DNA of 64,000 nucleotides from Acetomicrobium sp. S15 = DSM 107314 (lineage in GTDB: Bacteria > Synergistota > Synergistia > Synergistales > Thermosynergistaceae): contig NZ_JADEVE010000336.1 in NCBI RefSeq assembly GCF_016125955.1, positions 62,001-126,000 of the forward strand, given 5' to 3'. The notes below the pieces were generated by a model, which did not search any database, was not told where the DNA came from, and saw only the letters and a program-made list of their open reading frames with translations. Below are positions 16,285 through 24,644 of this stretch, one piece after another (the stretch's first letter is position 1; each line of letters begins with the position of its first letter). The translations under genes were made by a program, and so were the position numbers.

Positions 16285-16841
16285 AATCTAAGCTGATAGC
16301 TATGATGAGCGCGAGCGGCGCACTTTTGGAAGGGCACTTTCTCTTGACCTCTGGGCTTCATAGCGGCAACTACCTACAGTGTGCTATGTTATTGCGTTAT
16401 CCTGAAAACGCGGCGTTCGTAGGTGAGGCAATAGGCCGACAAGTGGCTAAGTTGAATCCGGAGGTGATCGTCTCGCCAGCCTTGGGAGGCATTATAGTGG
16501 GACATGAAGTGGCAAGGTGGTTGGGGGTGGAGTTTTTGTTCTGCGAGAGGGAGAATGGCAAGATGAAGCTCAGACGCTTTCCTCATCCTGGACACAGGAG
16601 AGCCGTGGTGGTTGAGGACGTTATAACCACCGGCACGTCCTCTCGCGAAGTGGGAGAGTACATCGCTCAGGGAGGAGCTGACTGGGTGGGCACGGCTTGC
16701 ATAGTTGACAGAAGCGGCGGTAAGGCTGGTTTTCCTACGCCGCTTTTCTCTCTGTGGCGCGTGAGCTTTCAGACGTACGAGCGCGACTTGTGCCCTCTCT
16801 GCAGGGCCGGCATTCCTCTGGTAAAGCCGGGCAGCCGATAA
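16257..16841 (+). CDS. pyrE: orotate phosphoribosyltransferase
   Basis: A 194-residue phosphoribosyltransferase with GHFLLTSGLHSGNYLQC near residue 26, which is typical of OPRTase, PALGGIIVGHE, and the PRPP loop VVVEDVITTGTSSREV near residue 120. It joins orotate and PRPP to give OMP. A GGAGGAGGG purine run just upstream of the ATG serves as the ribosome binding site, lying inside the end of pyrF. It completes the de novo pathway from carbamoyl phosphate; carbamoyl phosphate synthetase genes are not in the operon. Confidence 0.95.
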   Translation: MALQEGGSIESKLIAMMSASGALLEGHFLLTSGLHSGNYLQCAMLLRYPENAAFVGEAIGRQVAKLNPEVIVSPALGGIIVGHEVARWLGVEFLFCERENGKMKLRRFPHPGHRRAVVVEDVITTGTSSREVGEYIAQGGADWVGTACIVDRSGGKAGFPTPLFSLWRVSFQTYERDLCPLCRAGIPLVKPGSR

Positions 16842-16846
16842 GGAAA

Positions 16847-17629
16847 TTGGTAAAATTAAAAATAATCGTTATTTTTTTACTTATACTGTTCTGCACTGTC
16901 TCTCCCGTCGAGGCGTGGGAGCTCGCGGTTTCTGATCCGTGGCTGGCCGTGGTCGCGCGTTTTGTGGGCGGGACGGCTGTGCAGGTGCGGCCACTTGCCA
17001 CGTGGGGAGACCAAGGCGAAGTCATGGCCCTGCGGCAGAAGACCGATGCTAACGTTCCTACCCTTAGGCTCGTTTGCACGAACCCCAAGAATGGGACAAA
17101 ATGCCTTTACAGTGTGCTACCTGTCCCAGGAGAGAAGATGGGATCCCTGTTTTTCGATCCTGCCTCCCTTCCCTTTATCGGGCAACGCCTGCTACAGTTG
17201 TTGAGCGAGTGGGACCCCGGAAACTATTCTCTGTTTCAGAGGAGGTTGGCTGAGTTTCAATCCCGCCTCGATGGGAATTTGGCCATAGGGAGGAAACTGA
17301 TCGCAGGGCTTCCAATATTAGACCTCACTTTTCTGACGACCCCCTGGTTACAGGCTGCCTCGGGCGATCTCCTGCGCCCGCCCGAGGGCCATTTTGAGAC
17401 CTGGAGGTGCGGGGAAGGGACAGGTCTCTTAGAGGAGTGGCTTTCGAGGGCGCAAAAAGAAAAGAGGACAGTCGTGGCCGATGTGTGGACTCCTGCCGTA
17501 GTGAAGGATAGGCTCGCTAATTTCACGGGGTCGGTCGTCTTTCCTCCTCCCTCTCTTGATTTGGAGTGGACGCTCTACCTCCACGACCTTTATCTCGCAC
17601 TCATATCAGCTACCGCCGACCGATCTTGA
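16847..17629 (+). CDS. divergent ZnuA-like solute-binding protein (metal-ligand His residues missing)
   Basis: This 260-residue protein has a hydrophobic N-terminal signal (KIIVIFLLILFC; the Cys falls in a lipobox-like spot, though signal peptidase I cleavage after VEA is also possible). The mature part follows the plan of cluster A-I metal-binding proteins: a first strand with VGGTAVQVRPL, then FFDPASLPFIGQRLLQLL and LSEWDPGNYSLFQRRLAEFQSRLD, which match the WLDP and LDPxNAxxYxxN helices of ZnuA relatives. The usual metal-binding His positions (near residue 50 and before the FFDP motif) are replaced. The TTG start at 16847 has only a weak AAGGA upstream. It lies 5 bases after pyrE with no permease or ATPase gene nearby. 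Function is not assigned. Confidence 0.6.
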   Translation: MVKLKIIVIFLLILFCTVSPVEAWELAVSDPWLAVVARFVGGTAVQVRPLATWGDQGEVMALRQKTDANVPTLRLVCTNPKNGTKCLYSVLPVPGEKMGSLFFDPASLPFIGQRLLQLLSEWDPGNYSLFQRRLAEFQSRLDGNLAIGRKLIAGLPILDLTFLTTPWLQAASGDLLRPPEGHFETWRCGEGTGLLEEWLSRAQKEKRTVVADVWTPAVVKDRLANFTGSVVFPPPSLDLEWTLYLHDLYLALISATADRS

Positions 17630-18852: not shown

Positions 18853-19966
18853 ATGAATATGTTACCCGTTTCTACGACGATGGAAGAACTGCGCTCGATC
18901 TTCCGCGAGCTGCAGGACAGCCTTTGACCCCCTTGAACTTGAAAGTCAGGTCAACGATCTATTAGCCGACAGTTCTTCTCCCGAGTTTTGGTCGCGATCT
19001 GACTCCAGCGAAAAACTAAGAGCTTTGTCTCGCATCCAGGAAAAATTAGACCTTTGGAAGAGGCTGAGCCGTGAATTCGAAGAGGTCGAAGCGCTTGCGG
19101 AAATCTTAGACGAAGAAGAGGATCCGGAGTTGTTGGAGGAGTTTTACTCTCGCGCAAGGGCGCTGAAAGATGAAATCGAATCGTTCCAGATAAAACTCCT
19201 AATGGACGAGGAGCATGACAATTGCAATGCCATATTGAGCATTCATCCTGGAGCGGGGGGGTTGGACTCTCAGGATTGGGCCAAAATGCTTTTGCGCATG
19301 TACTTGCGCTGGGCGGAAAGGCGCAAGTATGATGCGGAAGTGGCAGAATTGCTCGAGGATGAAGGGGCTGGCATCAAGTCTGCCACCGTCTTTATTAAGG
19401 GCCAGTTTGCATATGGTTATTTGAAGGCGGAGCGCGGCATCCATCGCCTGGTGCGCATATCTCCCTTCGATGCCGCAAGAAGACGGCATACGAGCTTTGC
19501 CTCCGTTGAAGTGCTGCCCGAGCTTCCAGAGGACGTAGATGTCGAAATCCGCCCGGAAGATCTCAAAATAGATACGTTTAGAGCGAGCGGCGCAGGCGGC
19601 CAATACGTGAACATGACGGACTCGGCGGTGCGCATAACCCACTTGCCTACAGGTTTAGTGGTGAGTTGCCAAAAAGAGCGCTCACAGCACATGAACAGGC
19701 AGGTGGCGATGAAGATCTTGAGGGCGCGCCTATATGAACTTCGCCTTCAGGAACGACAGGCAGAGCTGGAGGCGATTCAGGGTGAGAAAAAGGAGATAGG
19801 CTGGGGCAACCAGATCCGCTCCTATGTTTTGCACCCTTATACGCTGGTGAAAGACCATCGCACCGGCGTAGAGATAGGCAATGTAGCCGCTGTACTCGAT
19901 GGAGATATAGATCCTTTCATCGTGGCTTTTTTGAAAAACCACAAGGTCAATACTATGAATAGGTGA
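18853..19966 (+). CDS. prfB: peptide chain release factor 2, with programmed +1 frameshift
   Basis: The gene is read in two frames: codons 1-24 at 18853-18924, then a +1 shift at an in-frame TGA (18925-18927), then 18926-19966, giving 370 residues. The joined protein has the RF2 pattern: LVRISPFDAARRRHTSF with the SPF anticodon-mimic motif and SGAGGQYVN with GGQ at residues 248-250. RF2 releases the chain at UGA and UAA. GGGAGG at 18840-18845 sets the ATG start. Low RF2 lets the ribosome shift at TGA and make more RF2, a well-known autoregulation. The next gene starts within its stop codon. Confidence 0.97.
18914..18928 (+). promoter_or_regulatory. RF2 programmed +1 frameshift site
   Basis: The CTTTGAC slippery element (18922-18928) matches the conserved RF2 site: peptidyl-tRNA on CTT slips to TTT and the ribosome resumes at GAC. 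An AGGA (18914-18917) just upstream takes the place of the internal Shine-Dalgarno that stimulates the shift. Confidence 0.95.
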
Positions 19967-21723
19967 TGAAGATTACCATGCGTAAGACATTTAAGGTGTT
20001 AACCCTTATCTTTTTTTACTTTACCGTCGTATGTACAACGGCGAAAGGAAGCCCCTTTGTACCGGCAGAGCCAATCCTTCCTGTAAACGAGGTAAGGCCA
20101 GGTATGAAGGGAGAGGTTCATACTGTCGTGAAGGGAACCGAAGTTATCTCCTTCCCGGCGGAAGTGCTCAGCGTGGTTCCCCAATCTGACCATCCGAAAC
20201 AGCTCATCTTGATTCGAACGAGCGGCCCTCTGGTGGAGCGAATCGGGGGGATCGCCGCCGGAATGAGCGGTAGCCCATTTTTCATCAATGGCAAGCTCGT
20301 GGGCGCTATAGGATACGGCTGGGAGTTTAGCGATCATCGACTTGGCCTCGTGACGCCGATAGAGGAGATGGCTTCCGTGTTGGACTGGCCTGAAGCCATC
20401 CCGCCATTTAGTCTTTCCTCTCCGCCCCAGAAGGAGCGGTTGCCCGAGGGAGCCATCTCGGAGGCAGGCACCAAGATGGCTCCGCTGGTGACTTCGGGCA
20501 TAAGCACGAGAGGAGCCCGACTAATCGGCGATTCGCTCAACTTAGATGCGATCTCCTTGCCTTCTTCGAGCGAAGGAGGCCTTCCTGTGGAGTATAAGGC
20601 TTCCCTTAAACCCGGCGACTCGGTTGGGGCGCTTTTGGCCTGGGGGGATGTAACAGTGGGAGCTACCGGCACGTTGACGGCCGTCGGTAAGGATGGGCGC
20701 TTCGTGGCCTTTGCTCATCCCTTTTTAAACCGCGGTTCTGTAGCGTATCCCTTGAGCCGTTCCTGGGTGCATGAAGTTATACCCAGCGTGCGCAGCCCCT
20801 TTAAGCTCGGCACCCCTATCAGCATAGTGGGCATGATTACACAAGACCGACCTCAAGCCATAGGTGGGAGACTGGGGTTTTTCCCTCCGGCGGTTGAGGT
20901 TTCCCTGCGCTTCCGCAACCAAGATACCGGCGCCGAAGTCGCCAAACGGTTCCAAATGGTCGATGACCCTTTCCTGATCAGTGAAGTGGCCCCCGGAGCC
21001 GTAATGGGGTTATTGGATGATCTATGGGGACGGGTGGGCGAAGGCACGATCAGATTCACCTTCACAGTGGAGGGGGGCGGCTTCCCGGGGAAGTTCAGCA
21101 TGAGAAATGTCTTCTTTTCCGATAAAGATGCAGCCCAAATCTTGACGAATGAGGTTAAAGGCCTTGTATCTATATTTGTTTTGAACCGATTTCAGGAAAT
21201 TCGCCCTCTCGGCTTTCATCTCGACGTTGAGGTGACAAGACTTCCTAAGATCCTGTACATCGAGAATTTAGAGGTAGAAAACCGGAGCGTTAAACCAGGC
21301 GACGAGATTCCAATTAAGGTGACGTTGAGGCCCTATCGCGGCGAGGCTCAAGTCAGGAATTTCTCGCTTCGCGTGCCGGAGGGGACGAGCGGAAGATGTG
21401 AAGTGATAGTGAGAGGTGGAGGCATAGCTGAGCCGGAGCAGAGATCCCTTTATGAGGGATGGCGGTCCATAAGGAGTCTGACCCAACTTCTCAAAGAGCT
21501 CGAAGCCAAAGAGTCGAACGACCAGATTATAATCGAGCTTTTAAGATATGAGGGAGCCGGTAAAGGAGTGGACTCAGAAATAGAGGAAGAACCCGAGCTG
21601 GTCAGCGAGATGAAGGAGAAGCGCATGAAGGAAGGTTCCCTTAGAGTTTTTCGCTCTTCTTACTATGTAGAGGGGTTGTTGCGAAAAGCCATAACAGTAG
21701 AAGGTGAAGAAGCTGAAGATTAA
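19966..21723 (+). CDS. SpoIVB-like peptidase S55 domain protein, exported
   Basis: A 585-residue protein with an N-terminal signal helix (about residues 8-26). Next is the segment that opens S55 domains (VNEVRPGMKGEV), the serine motif GGIAAGMSGSPFFINGK (Ser 101 and Ser 103) and, later, VAFAHPFLNRG with His 251. Ser-then-His is the order seen in the large non-sporulation S55 families. The C-terminal half (about 300-585) is beta-rich and ends in an acidic coil. The start is ATG 19966, overlapping the prfB stop (TGATG); ATG 19978 is also possible. It stands 17 bases before mlaE and probably shares its transcript. Substrate unknown; the active site is inferred from the motif. Confidence 0.75.
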   Translation: MKITMRKTFKVLTLIFFYFTVVCTTAKGSPFVPAEPILPVNEVRPGMKGEVHTVVKGTEVISFPAEVLSVVPQSDHPKQLILIRTSGPLVERIGGIAAGMSGSPFFINGKLVGAIGYGWEFSDHRLGLVTPIEEMASVLDWPEAIPPFSLSSPPQKERLPEGAISEAGTKMAPLVTSGISTRGARLIGDSLNLDAISLPSSSEGGLPVEYKASLKPGDSVGALLAWGDVTVGATGTLTAVGKDGRFVAFAHPFLNRGSVAYPLSRSWVHEVIPSVRSPFKLGTPISIVGMITQDRPQAIGGRLGFFPPAVEVSLRFRNQDTGAEVAKRFQMVDDPFLISEVAPGAVMGLLDDLWGRVGEGTIRFTFTVEGGGFPGKFSMRNVFFSDKDAAQILTNEVKGLVSIFVLNRFQEIRPLGFHLDVEVTRLPKILYIENLEVENRSVKPGDEIPIKVTLRPYRGEAQVRNFSLRVPEGTSGRCEVIVRGGGIAEPEQRSLYEGWRSIRSLTQLLKELEAKESNDQIIIELLRYEGAGKGVDSEIEEEPELVSEMKEKRMKEGSLRVFRSSYYVEGLLRKAITVEGEEAED

Positions 21724-21740: not shown

Positions 21741-22538
21741 ATGTCGAATAGCAACGAAAGACCTGGTTTCATTGTAGCAATCGGCAGAGGAACCATCGCC
21801 TTTTTGGAAGTATTGGGATGTTACGTAGTTTTTGCATGTAGGTCGCTGGGCGGCCTATGGCGACATACATGGAGCTTGCGCGATCTCGTGGAACAGTTGG
21901 AAAGAGTGGGCGTTGGTTCTGTTATCATGGTCTCCATAACCAGCGCGTTTACGGGTATGGTCATGGCCGTTCAGACTTTAGATCAGTTTTTGCGATTCGG
22001 CGCAGGTGAATATATCGGCGGCGTGATCGCTTTGAGCCTCATAAGGGAAATGTCGCCAGTGCTAACGGGACTTGTGGTAGCTGGGCGCGTGGGGGCGTCT
22101 ATGGCTGCCGAAATCGGCACCATGCGGGTCACAGAGCAGCTCGATGCCCTCAAGGCTTTTGGCCTGAACGACGAGGTTTTTGTGGGGGCGCCGAGAATAG
22201 TGGCTTCGATGATAATGCTGCCCGTATTGACGATCTATTCCTTCGCCGTCGGCATAGGAGGAGGCTATCTCTATGTGGTGGCCCATGGCGTGCATCAGAG
22301 CACTTTTAGGCGATCTATCGAGGTCCTTGTAGATCCTTACGACGTCTACGGCGGTTTGTTAAAGGCTCTTATTTTTGGCCTAATCATAGCGACCGTGGCG
22401 TGTAGTGAGGGTTTCCGCGCCGGCAACGGTGCCAAAGGGGTCGGCGAAGCTACTACTCGAGCTGTTGTGTGGGGTGATATGTTAATTTTGGTCTTCAACT
22501 ATTTCCTCTCCACCTTCCTCTTCGGGGGTGGGGGTTAG
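21741..22538 (+). CDS. mlaE: MlaE-type phospholipid ABC transporter permease
   Basis: A 265-residue integral membrane protein of the MlaE family with about five or six helices. Diagnostic segments are ITSAFTGMVMAVQT, LIREMSPVLTGLVVAGRVGASMAAEIGTMRVTEQLDAL (split here across residues about 95-135) and the late ACSEGFRAGNGAKGVG. MlaE forms the inner-membrane core that moves phospholipid under control of MlaF. Its last base overlaps the mlaF GTG. No separate mlaA, mlaB or mlaC is nearby. Confidence 0.93.
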   Translation: MSNSNERPGFIVAIGRGTIAFLEVLGCYVVFACRSLGGLWRHTWSLRDLVEQLERVGVGSVIMVSITSAFTGMVMAVQTLDQFLRFGAGEYIGGVIALSLIREMSPVLTGLVVAGRVGASMAAEIGTMRVTEQLDALKAFGLNDEVFVGAPRIVASMIMLPVLTIYSFAVGIGGGYLYVVAHGVHQSTFRRSIEVLVDPYDVYGGLLKALIFGLIIATVACSEGFRAGNGAKGVGEATTRAVVWGDMLILVFNYFLSTFLFGGGG

Positions 22539-23305
22539 TGGAGGAGATATTAAGGGTAAGAGAGGCATTTAAGCGGTTCGATGATCATCAAGTGCTTAAG
22601 GGCGTGAGCTTCTCGCTGGCTGCCGGCGAAGCGATGGCTTTAATGGGGCCATCCGGGTGTGGGAAAACCACGGTCTTGCGCCTCGTCTTGCGCCTCGTTG
22701 ATATCGAAGATGGAGAAGTTCATCTATTCGGCCACAACGTAGCCGAAGCAGACGAGGAAGAACTAATCGAACTGAGGCGAAGGATCGGTGTCGTCTTCCA
22801 AGGAGGGGCGCTTTTTGACTCGATGAGCGTGGGAGAAAACGTGGCCTTTCCGTTGTATTATTGCTTGGGGGTCAAAGATAAAAAAGCCGTAAGTGAACGT
22901 GTCGAGGAAATCCTGACAGCCGTGGGACTCGAAGGCGCAGAGAGCCTTCTTCCAGCTGAGCTATCCGGCGGGATGAGAAAGCGCGTTGCAATCGCGAGGG
23001 CATTGGTTTATCGTCCTCGGTTATTGCTTTTGGACGAGCCGTCTACGGGGCTTGATCCGATCACGGCAAGGCTCATAGACGAGCTCGTTTTGAAGTTGAA
23101 AGAGACGTTTAATGTTGGCGTGCTCATGGTCACTCACGACATAGTTTCTGCTCTCGGCGTCAGCGATAAGATATCCTTAATGGATGAAGGTCGCATAGTA
23201 TGGGTTGGCACGCCCCTTGAGTGGCATAAGTCGCAGGACCCGAATGTCTTGCGATTCGCCTCTGGACTCAGAGCCGTGAGGAGAGGTGGGCAGGTTGAGC
23301 CGTGA
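22538..23305 (+). CDS. mlaF: MlaF-type phospholipid ABC transporter ATP-binding protein
   Basis: A 255-residue ABC ATPase with Walker A GPSGCGKTTVL near residue 38, the Q-loop in VVFQGGALFDSMSV (the GALFDS stretch is typical of MlaF), signature ELSGGMRKRVAIARAL and Walker B LLLLDEPSTGLDP. It hydrolyses ATP in the cytoplasm to drive MlaE. The GTG start overlaps the mlaE stop; TTTAGTGGAGGAG gives little room for a separate binding site, which suggests translational coupling. It overlaps mlaD by 20 bases. Confidence 0.95.
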   Translation: MEEILRVREAFKRFDDHQVLKGVSFSLAAGEAMALMGPSGCGKTTVLRLVLRLVDIEDGEVHLFGHNVAEADEEELIELRRRIGVVFQGGALFDSMSVGENVAFPLYYCLGVKDKKAVSERVEEILTAVGLEGAESLLPAELSGGMRKRVAIARALVYRPRLLLLDEPSTGLDPITARLIDELVLKLKETFNVGVLMVTHDIVSALGVSDKISLMDEGRIVWVGTPLEWHKSQDPNVLRFASGLRAVRRGGQVEP

Positions 23306-24644
23306 GCTGAAGGTCGGGATAGCAACCTTCGTTGCCTTGGCGCTACTCGGAGGGTTGGTCTTCGTCACGGGCGGCAAATGGTGGCGAGAAAAAGGTTACG
23401 AAATAGAAGTGCTTTTGGAAGACGCCTCCGGTCTCAAAAGCGGTTCTCCTGTTTACATATCGGGCGTTGAGGGAGGGTACGTGATAGGGGTGTCTTTGAT
23501 TCCCGCAAGAGCGTCGGTCAAGATATCGGTGCGCGAGGGGTATAAAATACCAATCGACAGCAGCTTCATAGTTGACAGGGGAGGATTGTTGGGGGAGGCC
23601 AACTTGAAGATCTACAGAGGGCAGAGCGAAGAATATCTTTCGCCCGGGAGCAGCGTCAACGGAAGGTCCCAGCCTGGAATGGACGAGTTGGTCGCTGAAG
23701 TGCAAAAAAATCTCCAGATCATGGAGGACATCTTTAGTAGGATAAAAGAGATCATGGACGATCAAGAGATTTGGGAGGCCTTTAGGAAAGCCTCTATAGA
23801 TCTCCCTCATCTCATTGCAGATGTGCGGGTGGCGATGCAACGCCTCTCGAACGTTGCAGATCAAGGAAAAGCCTTCCTTGAAAGAGTTCAGACAGACGTT
23901 GGCGTCCTCACCGAGCGTTGGTCCAGCCTGTCGGGAACGCTGGAGGGGGTTGTAAAAGAAAACGACGAAGACTTGAGGATGACTATAACGAAGCTGAGAT
24001 CGTCTGTGGAACGGATAGACTCAATAATAACCGATTTCGACGTTGATGGAGAAGGCGGGAAAGATTTGAGGCGCGCTGTAAAGGGGCTGGGGGACGCAAC
24101 CCAGAGCCTCGCTGAGTTGGCGAGAAATCTTGACGCTGCTTTATTTGAAGATGGAGAAGGAAAATTGCCTGCTCTTTTAGAGGATGTAACGGAAACAACA
24201 TCACAGGCCAGTGAGCTTTTGAAAGAAGTGCAATCTTATCGGATTAGCGGAAGAACCTACGTTCATCAGATGACCTCTGGCGAGGATGAAGAGCTCATGA
24301 TGGATGTGGGTTTAGATATAGGTAAGGTAAACTCCCCGTGGTTCCTTCGTCTCGCGGGCGAGGACTTGGGATATGATGACGCATTTACCGGTGCCTTCGG
24401 ATACCGTGCCAGATGGGGTGAGCTATGGGGAGGCTATGTCCACGGAGATCTGGGCGGTGGAGCGCTTTGGGACATGAAGACGATCGGCCTGCCGCTCGCC
24501 ATTTCTTGGCAGTGGTGGGATGAAGATGGGGGAAAATGGTATGTCCAAGGCGAGTGGCGCGTTACAGACCGTTGGGGGCTATTCTATCGCCATTACGAGG
24601 GCGATGATGACACGGAATCGGTCGGCGTCTCCTATAGATTCTGA
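23286..24644 (+). CDS. mlaD: MCE-domain protein MlaD with long helical linker and C-terminal beta-barrel-like domain
   Basis: A 452-residue protein, far longer than the 180 residues of Escherichia coli MlaD. A single membrane helix (about 12-28) is followed by one MCE domain (about 38-115: LLEDASGLKSGSPVYISGV through GLLGEANLKI). A long amphipathic helical region (about 135-310) leads into about 130 residues of alternating, aromatic-rich beta strands that end YRF with a terminal Phe, as in outer-membrane barrels. This matches the plan described for Veillonella parvula MlaD, where one protein bridges both membranes. GTG 23286 is used; TTG 23295 with AGGTGG upstream is an equally good start. 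Confidence 0.85.
   Translation: MGRLSRELKVGIATFVALALLGGLVFVTGGKWWREKGYEIEVLLEDASGLKSGSPVYISGVEGGYVIGVSLIPARASVKISVREGYKIPIDSSFIVDRGGLLGEANLKIYRGQSEEYLSPGSSVNGRSQPGMDELVAEVQKNLQIMEDIFSRIKEIMDDQEIWEAFRKASIDLPHLIADVRVAMQRLSNVADQGKAFLERVQTDVGVLTERWSSLSGTLEGVVKENDEDLRMTITKLRSSVERIDSIITDFDVDGEGGKDLRRAVKGLGDATQSLAELARNLDAALFEDGEGKLPALLEDVTETTSQASELLKEVQSYRISGRTYVHQMTSGEDEELMMDVGLDIGKVNSPWFLRLAGEDLGYDDAFTGAFGYRARWGELWGGYVHGDLGGGALWDMKTIGLPLAISWQWWDEDGGKWYVQGEWRVTDRWGLFYRHYEGDDDTESVGVSYRF

Follow-up and report, generated by a model that had tools for sequence, protein, structure and literature searches.

A minimal MlaEFD locus in Synergistales encodes a long MlaD with a predicted outer-membrane barrel

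The window analyzed here, a 64,000-nucleotide stretch of the Acetomicrobium sp. S15 genome, contains an mlaE-mlaF-mlaD gene set on the forward strand. The first gene, mlaE (21741 to 22538, +), encodes a 265-residue permease that matches Pfam MlaE (PF02405; 2.4e-72) and scores above the cut-off of TIGR00056. The product of mlaF (22538 to 23305, +) is an MlaF-like ATPase, which matches ABC_tran (5.4e-35) and, below that model's cut-off, the MlaF model PRK11831 (3.9e-50). The third gene, mlaD (23286 to 24644, +), has a start that overlaps the end of mlaF and encodes a long MlaD, in which residues 36 to 109 match Pfam MlaD (PF02470; 1.1e-11). With MlaE and MlaD above the curated Pfam cut-offs and an ABC ATPase adjacent to them, the set has the composition of an MlaEFD-type MCE lipid ABC transporter. 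Directly upstream of mlaE lies a gene for an exported-looking homologue of S55 (SpoIVB-type) peptidases (19963 to 21723, +; Pfam PF05580, 7.6e-11), which carries the motif GMSGSP.

In the list of open reading frames for the window, mlaD is a frame of 452 codons, and the earlier note had taken this whole span as the gene. The span stands, but the start is likely to lie slightly further downstream. The GTG codon at 23286 has next to no space upstream for a ribosome-binding site, and the purine-rich AGGAGA at 23279 to 23284 is well spaced for TTG at 23295, which is also the start position of most relatives in the MlaD alignment. Because both the spacing and the relatives favor TTG 23295, the protein probably has 449 rather than 452 residues. 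MlaD is conserved outside the genus at 30 to 39% identity, and the observation is therefore more than chance. The nearest named record, "Synergistales bacterium 54_24", has an MlaD that is 93% identical, and a viral-contig scan and a plasmid search turned up no useful relative.

MlaD can be divided into four parts. A hydrophobic stretch recognized by eye and aligned in relatives forms the N-terminal membrane helix (residues 6 to 35; 23301 to 23390, +). It is followed by a single MCE domain (residues 36 to 109; 23391 to 23612, +), identified by Pfam PF02470 and by PDB matches to Mce1, MlaD, and YebT chains, and by a helical region (residues 131 to 317; 23676 to 24236, +). The family-averaged hydrophobicity of residues 133 to 317, derived from an alignment with an effective sequence number of 18, showed strong helical periodicity (z = 8.2 versus shuffles) that peaked near 102 degrees per residue, which comes close to a heptad-like hydrophobic seam. 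In line with this, the profile match to the solved Mce1 chains (8fed) runs from the MCE domain into this region, which is also modeled as helices, at low confidence, in a full-length AlphaFold prediction made from a two-sequence alignment (mean pLDDT 37.3). The remainder of the protein is a C-terminal strand-rich domain (residues 318 to 452; 24237 to 24641, +). We found the same plan in 29 Synergistota MlaD proteins, with 95 to 96 residues in the MCE domain, 159 to 202 in the helical region, and 132 to 141 in the C-terminal domain. A membrane helix, one MCE domain, about 175 helical residues, and about 130 strand-forming residues ending in Phe had been proposed from the sequence at first sight; the analysis bears this out, with about 187 helical and 135 C-terminal residues and a final Phe. 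Among the relatives, one MlaD (L013, genome G014) carries a 14-residue insertion in the helical region, equal to two heptads, and in family f10 this region is about 20 to 30 residues shorter.

The C-terminal domain has the character of a beta structure. Residues 318 to 452 showed beta alternation at 180 degrees (z = 2.9, p = 0.0035) and no helical periodicity, and about 10 strands could be counted by eye. This alternation is modest and by itself insufficient to demonstrate a membrane barrel, because the soluble MCE domain scores close behind (z = 1.8). AlphaFold gave a mean pLDDT of 38.3 for residues 318 to 452, again from two sequences, and neither this model nor the full-length one is informative on the fold or on a barrel. 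A profile of the domain searched against PDB and Pfam produced nothing significant; the sole Pfam line, OMP_b-brl (E = 0.42), aligns at the extreme end of that model. These observations leave room for two other arrangements, namely, a soluble beta domain or a domain that pairs across a hexamer to form one composite barrel capping the tunnel, comparable to the single strands contributed by Mce1 chains. Alternation of this kind cannot tell soluble from membrane sheets, and the domain is without a family or structure match. Precedent exists as well, since most long MlaD proteins are predicted to be barrel-less and Mce1 ends in a composite six-stranded barrel (PMC10665443). We nevertheless consider either arrangement unlikely, given a C-terminal signal conserved in the family, the presence of BamA in the host, and a length of 132 to 141 residues per domain, which gives each chain room for about 10 strands of its own.

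The C-terminal signal provides the best evidence for a location in the outer membrane. BAM recognizes outer-membrane proteins through the pattern polar-x-Gly-x-x-hydrophobic-x-hydrophobic. The last eight residues of MlaD, S-V-G-V-S-Y-R-F (residues 445 to 452; 24618 to 24641, +), fit this pattern, and they also match a strict form of it, polar-x-G-x-x-hydrophobic-x-aromatic, anchored at the C terminus. The strict signal, including a terminal Phe, was present in 26 of the 29 Synergistota MlaD proteins, and in an alignment of 17 sequences G447, Y450, and F452 were invariant. The window and 28 further loci yielded 462 stop-to-stop frames 200 codons or longer; among these, the strict pattern occurred 15 times, always in MlaD and in none of the approximately 445 other frames. 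Outside Synergistales, three of four complete MlaD proteins from families f11 and f12 carried it as well. Together, these results support insertion of MlaD into the outer membrane, and we regard residues 318 to 452 as a predicted outer-membrane barrel. The signal is sequence evidence, independent of structure prediction, in support of MlaD ending in the outer membrane, and it adds a second deep diderm lineage with such support.

The host had been proposed to be diderm. LpxC was detected in all 41 Synergistota genomes and BamA in 40 of them. The genome under study contains both, with a cluster comprising BamA, LpxB, LptF/G, and open reading frames that read as LpxD, LpxC, FabZ, and LpxA. Because LpxC, BamA, and this lipid A and LptF/G cluster are present, the host, a member of the Synergistales, is very probably an LPS-bearing diderm, as proposed. 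LptD (PF04453) had no match in any of the 41 Synergistota genomes, although LpxC was found in every one, and we read this as poor sensitivity of the model or divergence, not absence, or else as replacement. TamB was not detected in this genome and was found weakly in 14 of the 41 genomes. Directly 3' of its bamA gene, the genome encodes a 410-residue protein (L088, 9751 to 10983) with a strand-like C-terminal part and no Pfam match.

We then asked which other Mla components the genome encodes. Rated 99.87% complete, it contains a single MCE protein, and profile searches detected no MlaA, MlaC, or MlaB in it, while E. coli and Caulobacter, used as controls for MlaA and MlaC, were positive. The earlier note had described an mlaEFD set without mlaA, mlaB, or mlaC at this locus and had named an MlaC/MlaA pair elsewhere as evidence against its reading; the absence of matches extends to the whole genome, and no such pair was found. 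MlaA, MlaB, and MlaC, which mark the six-component E. coli Mla system, are thus missing from the set detected here. The MlaFEDB-MlaC-MlaA systems of E. coli and A. baumannii share homologous MlaE, MlaF, and MCE domains with the Synergistales system, but E. coli MlaD is short (183 residues), and the system needs the MlaC shuttle and a complex of MlaA with porin, none of which was found here.

A closer counterpart is known from Veillonella parvula. Grasekamp and colleagues described a V. parvula MlaEFD system without MlaA and MlaC; its MlaD has 419 residues, and in it a membrane helix and an MCE domain precede some 150 helical residues and a barrel predicted to have ten strands (PMC10665443). 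On fractionation, a construct carrying the barrel was recovered with the outer membrane, mutant phenotypes were described, and the long MlaD was proposed to be an ancestral trans-envelope bridge (PMC10665443). Such barrel-bearing MlaD proteins are reported to be widely distributed in diderm Terrabacteria, and phyla with LPS but no Mla are noted as well (PMC10665443). The two systems are alike in consisting of three genes, with no MlaA, MlaC, or MlaB, in an LPS-bearing diderm. Judged by the published plan, their MlaD proteins are also alike, with similar lengths, a transmembrane helix, one MCE domain, a helical part of 150 to 190 residues, and, at the C terminus, a beta domain with about 10 strands. 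The likeness to V. parvula had been put forward beforehand, and the Synergistales system agrees with it on every sequence feature that was conclusively tested. They differ in phylum and in gene neighborhood, which is tolC-tamB in V. parvula and the S55 peptidase gene upstream and tmk downstream here; moreover, the location of the barrel was shown by experiment in V. parvula, whereas in Synergistales both the barrel and its location are predicted from sequence. We therefore file the Synergistales MlaEFD, on the basis of these shared features, as a probable further member of the V. parvula-type minimal systems with a long MlaD. The trans-envelope reading of MlaD is not new in kind, as the literature already contains it for Veillonella and, more generally, for diderm Terrabacteria.

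Taken as a whole, we assign a probability of about 0.8 to the reading that this locus encodes the minimal MlaEFD system of LPS-bearing Synergistales, in which MlaD bridges the inner and outer membranes through its C-terminal barrel. Six MlaD chains would form an MCE ring on MlaE2F2, and their helices would continue as a hydrophobic tunnel that crosses the periplasm. A fully helical stretch of 187 residues, with a rise of 1.5 angstrom each, could reach a length of about 28 nm at the most, which is enough for a periplasm of the width found in V. parvula, 24 nm (PMC10665443). Each C-terminal domain would be inserted by BAM as a barrel of roughly 10 strands; the barrels would anchor the tunnel and take the place of MlaA and MlaC. 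According to the Veillonella authors, a narrow 10-stranded barrel would itself not pass lipid (PMC10665443). The mycobacterial Mce1A-1F complex (8fed) resembles this arrangement in having an MCE ring followed by long helices that form a tunnel, and the sequence match reaches the helical part. In contrast, it is a heterohexamer, contributes one strand per chain to a composite barrel, and belongs to another type of envelope. The earlier description of MlaD as a one-protein trans-envelope bridge fits the diderm host, the MlaEFD-only gene content, the V. parvula plan, and the beta-signal; "one-protein" is too loose, however, since a homohexamer of MlaD would form the bridge and MlaE and MlaF would drive it.

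The cargo would most likely be phospholipids, probably carried back from the outer membrane. A periplasm-spanning bridge could also work as an exporter or move another hydrophobic substrate, with the barrel acting solely as an anchor. The direction of transport was controversial until recently even for the E. coli-type Mla system (PMC10665443), and related MCE systems carry other lipids, such as cholesterol. The phenotypes of the V. parvula mutant and its tamB suppressors, however, fit retrograde phospholipid transport, and we consider an exporter or a different substrate improbable.

MlaD and MlaE were detected in the identical 19 of 41 Synergistota genomes, a lower bound, since both are missing from a few genomes that belong to mla-positive families but are incomplete. 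The order birA-prfB-S55 peptidase-mlaE-mlaF-mlaD-tmk-holB-ricT was kept in all 16 mla-positive Synergistales loci compared, so that the S55 gene directly precedes mlaE in each of them, and S55-mlaE-mlaF-mlaD is also kept in family f11, outside the order. A working role of the S55 homologue in the Synergistota Mla system, for example in cutting or gating a trans-envelope MlaD bridge, seems to us very unlikely; if it had one, the machine would have four components, not three.

Relatives lacking mla keep LpxC and mostly keep the S55 gene. In four loci (L043, L046, L048, and L052) mlaEFD is cleanly gone between the S55 gene and tmk, whereas in three others (L047, L053, and L044) an M18-like aminopeptidase gene, recognized by eye, occupies the site; LpxC is present in all seven. 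A different lipid transporter replacing mlaEFD was considered for these relatives and rejected, as the locus shows either no gene in place of mlaEFD or the aminopeptidase gene. In a tree of the S55 proteins, well-supported branches force two or more changes of the mla label. Loss is the simpler reading, because the mla gene set is present in f11, and lineages that retain LPS genes would then have lost mlaEFD on at least two occasions. Such Synergistales families, with LPS genes but mlaEFD lost, offer a natural comparison that could reveal what takes the place of retrograde lipid transport. Further upstream in the window, an exported-looking protein of 291 residues without a Pfam match is encoded at 16754 to 17629, and many Synergistales have it at the syntenic position between pyrE and birA.
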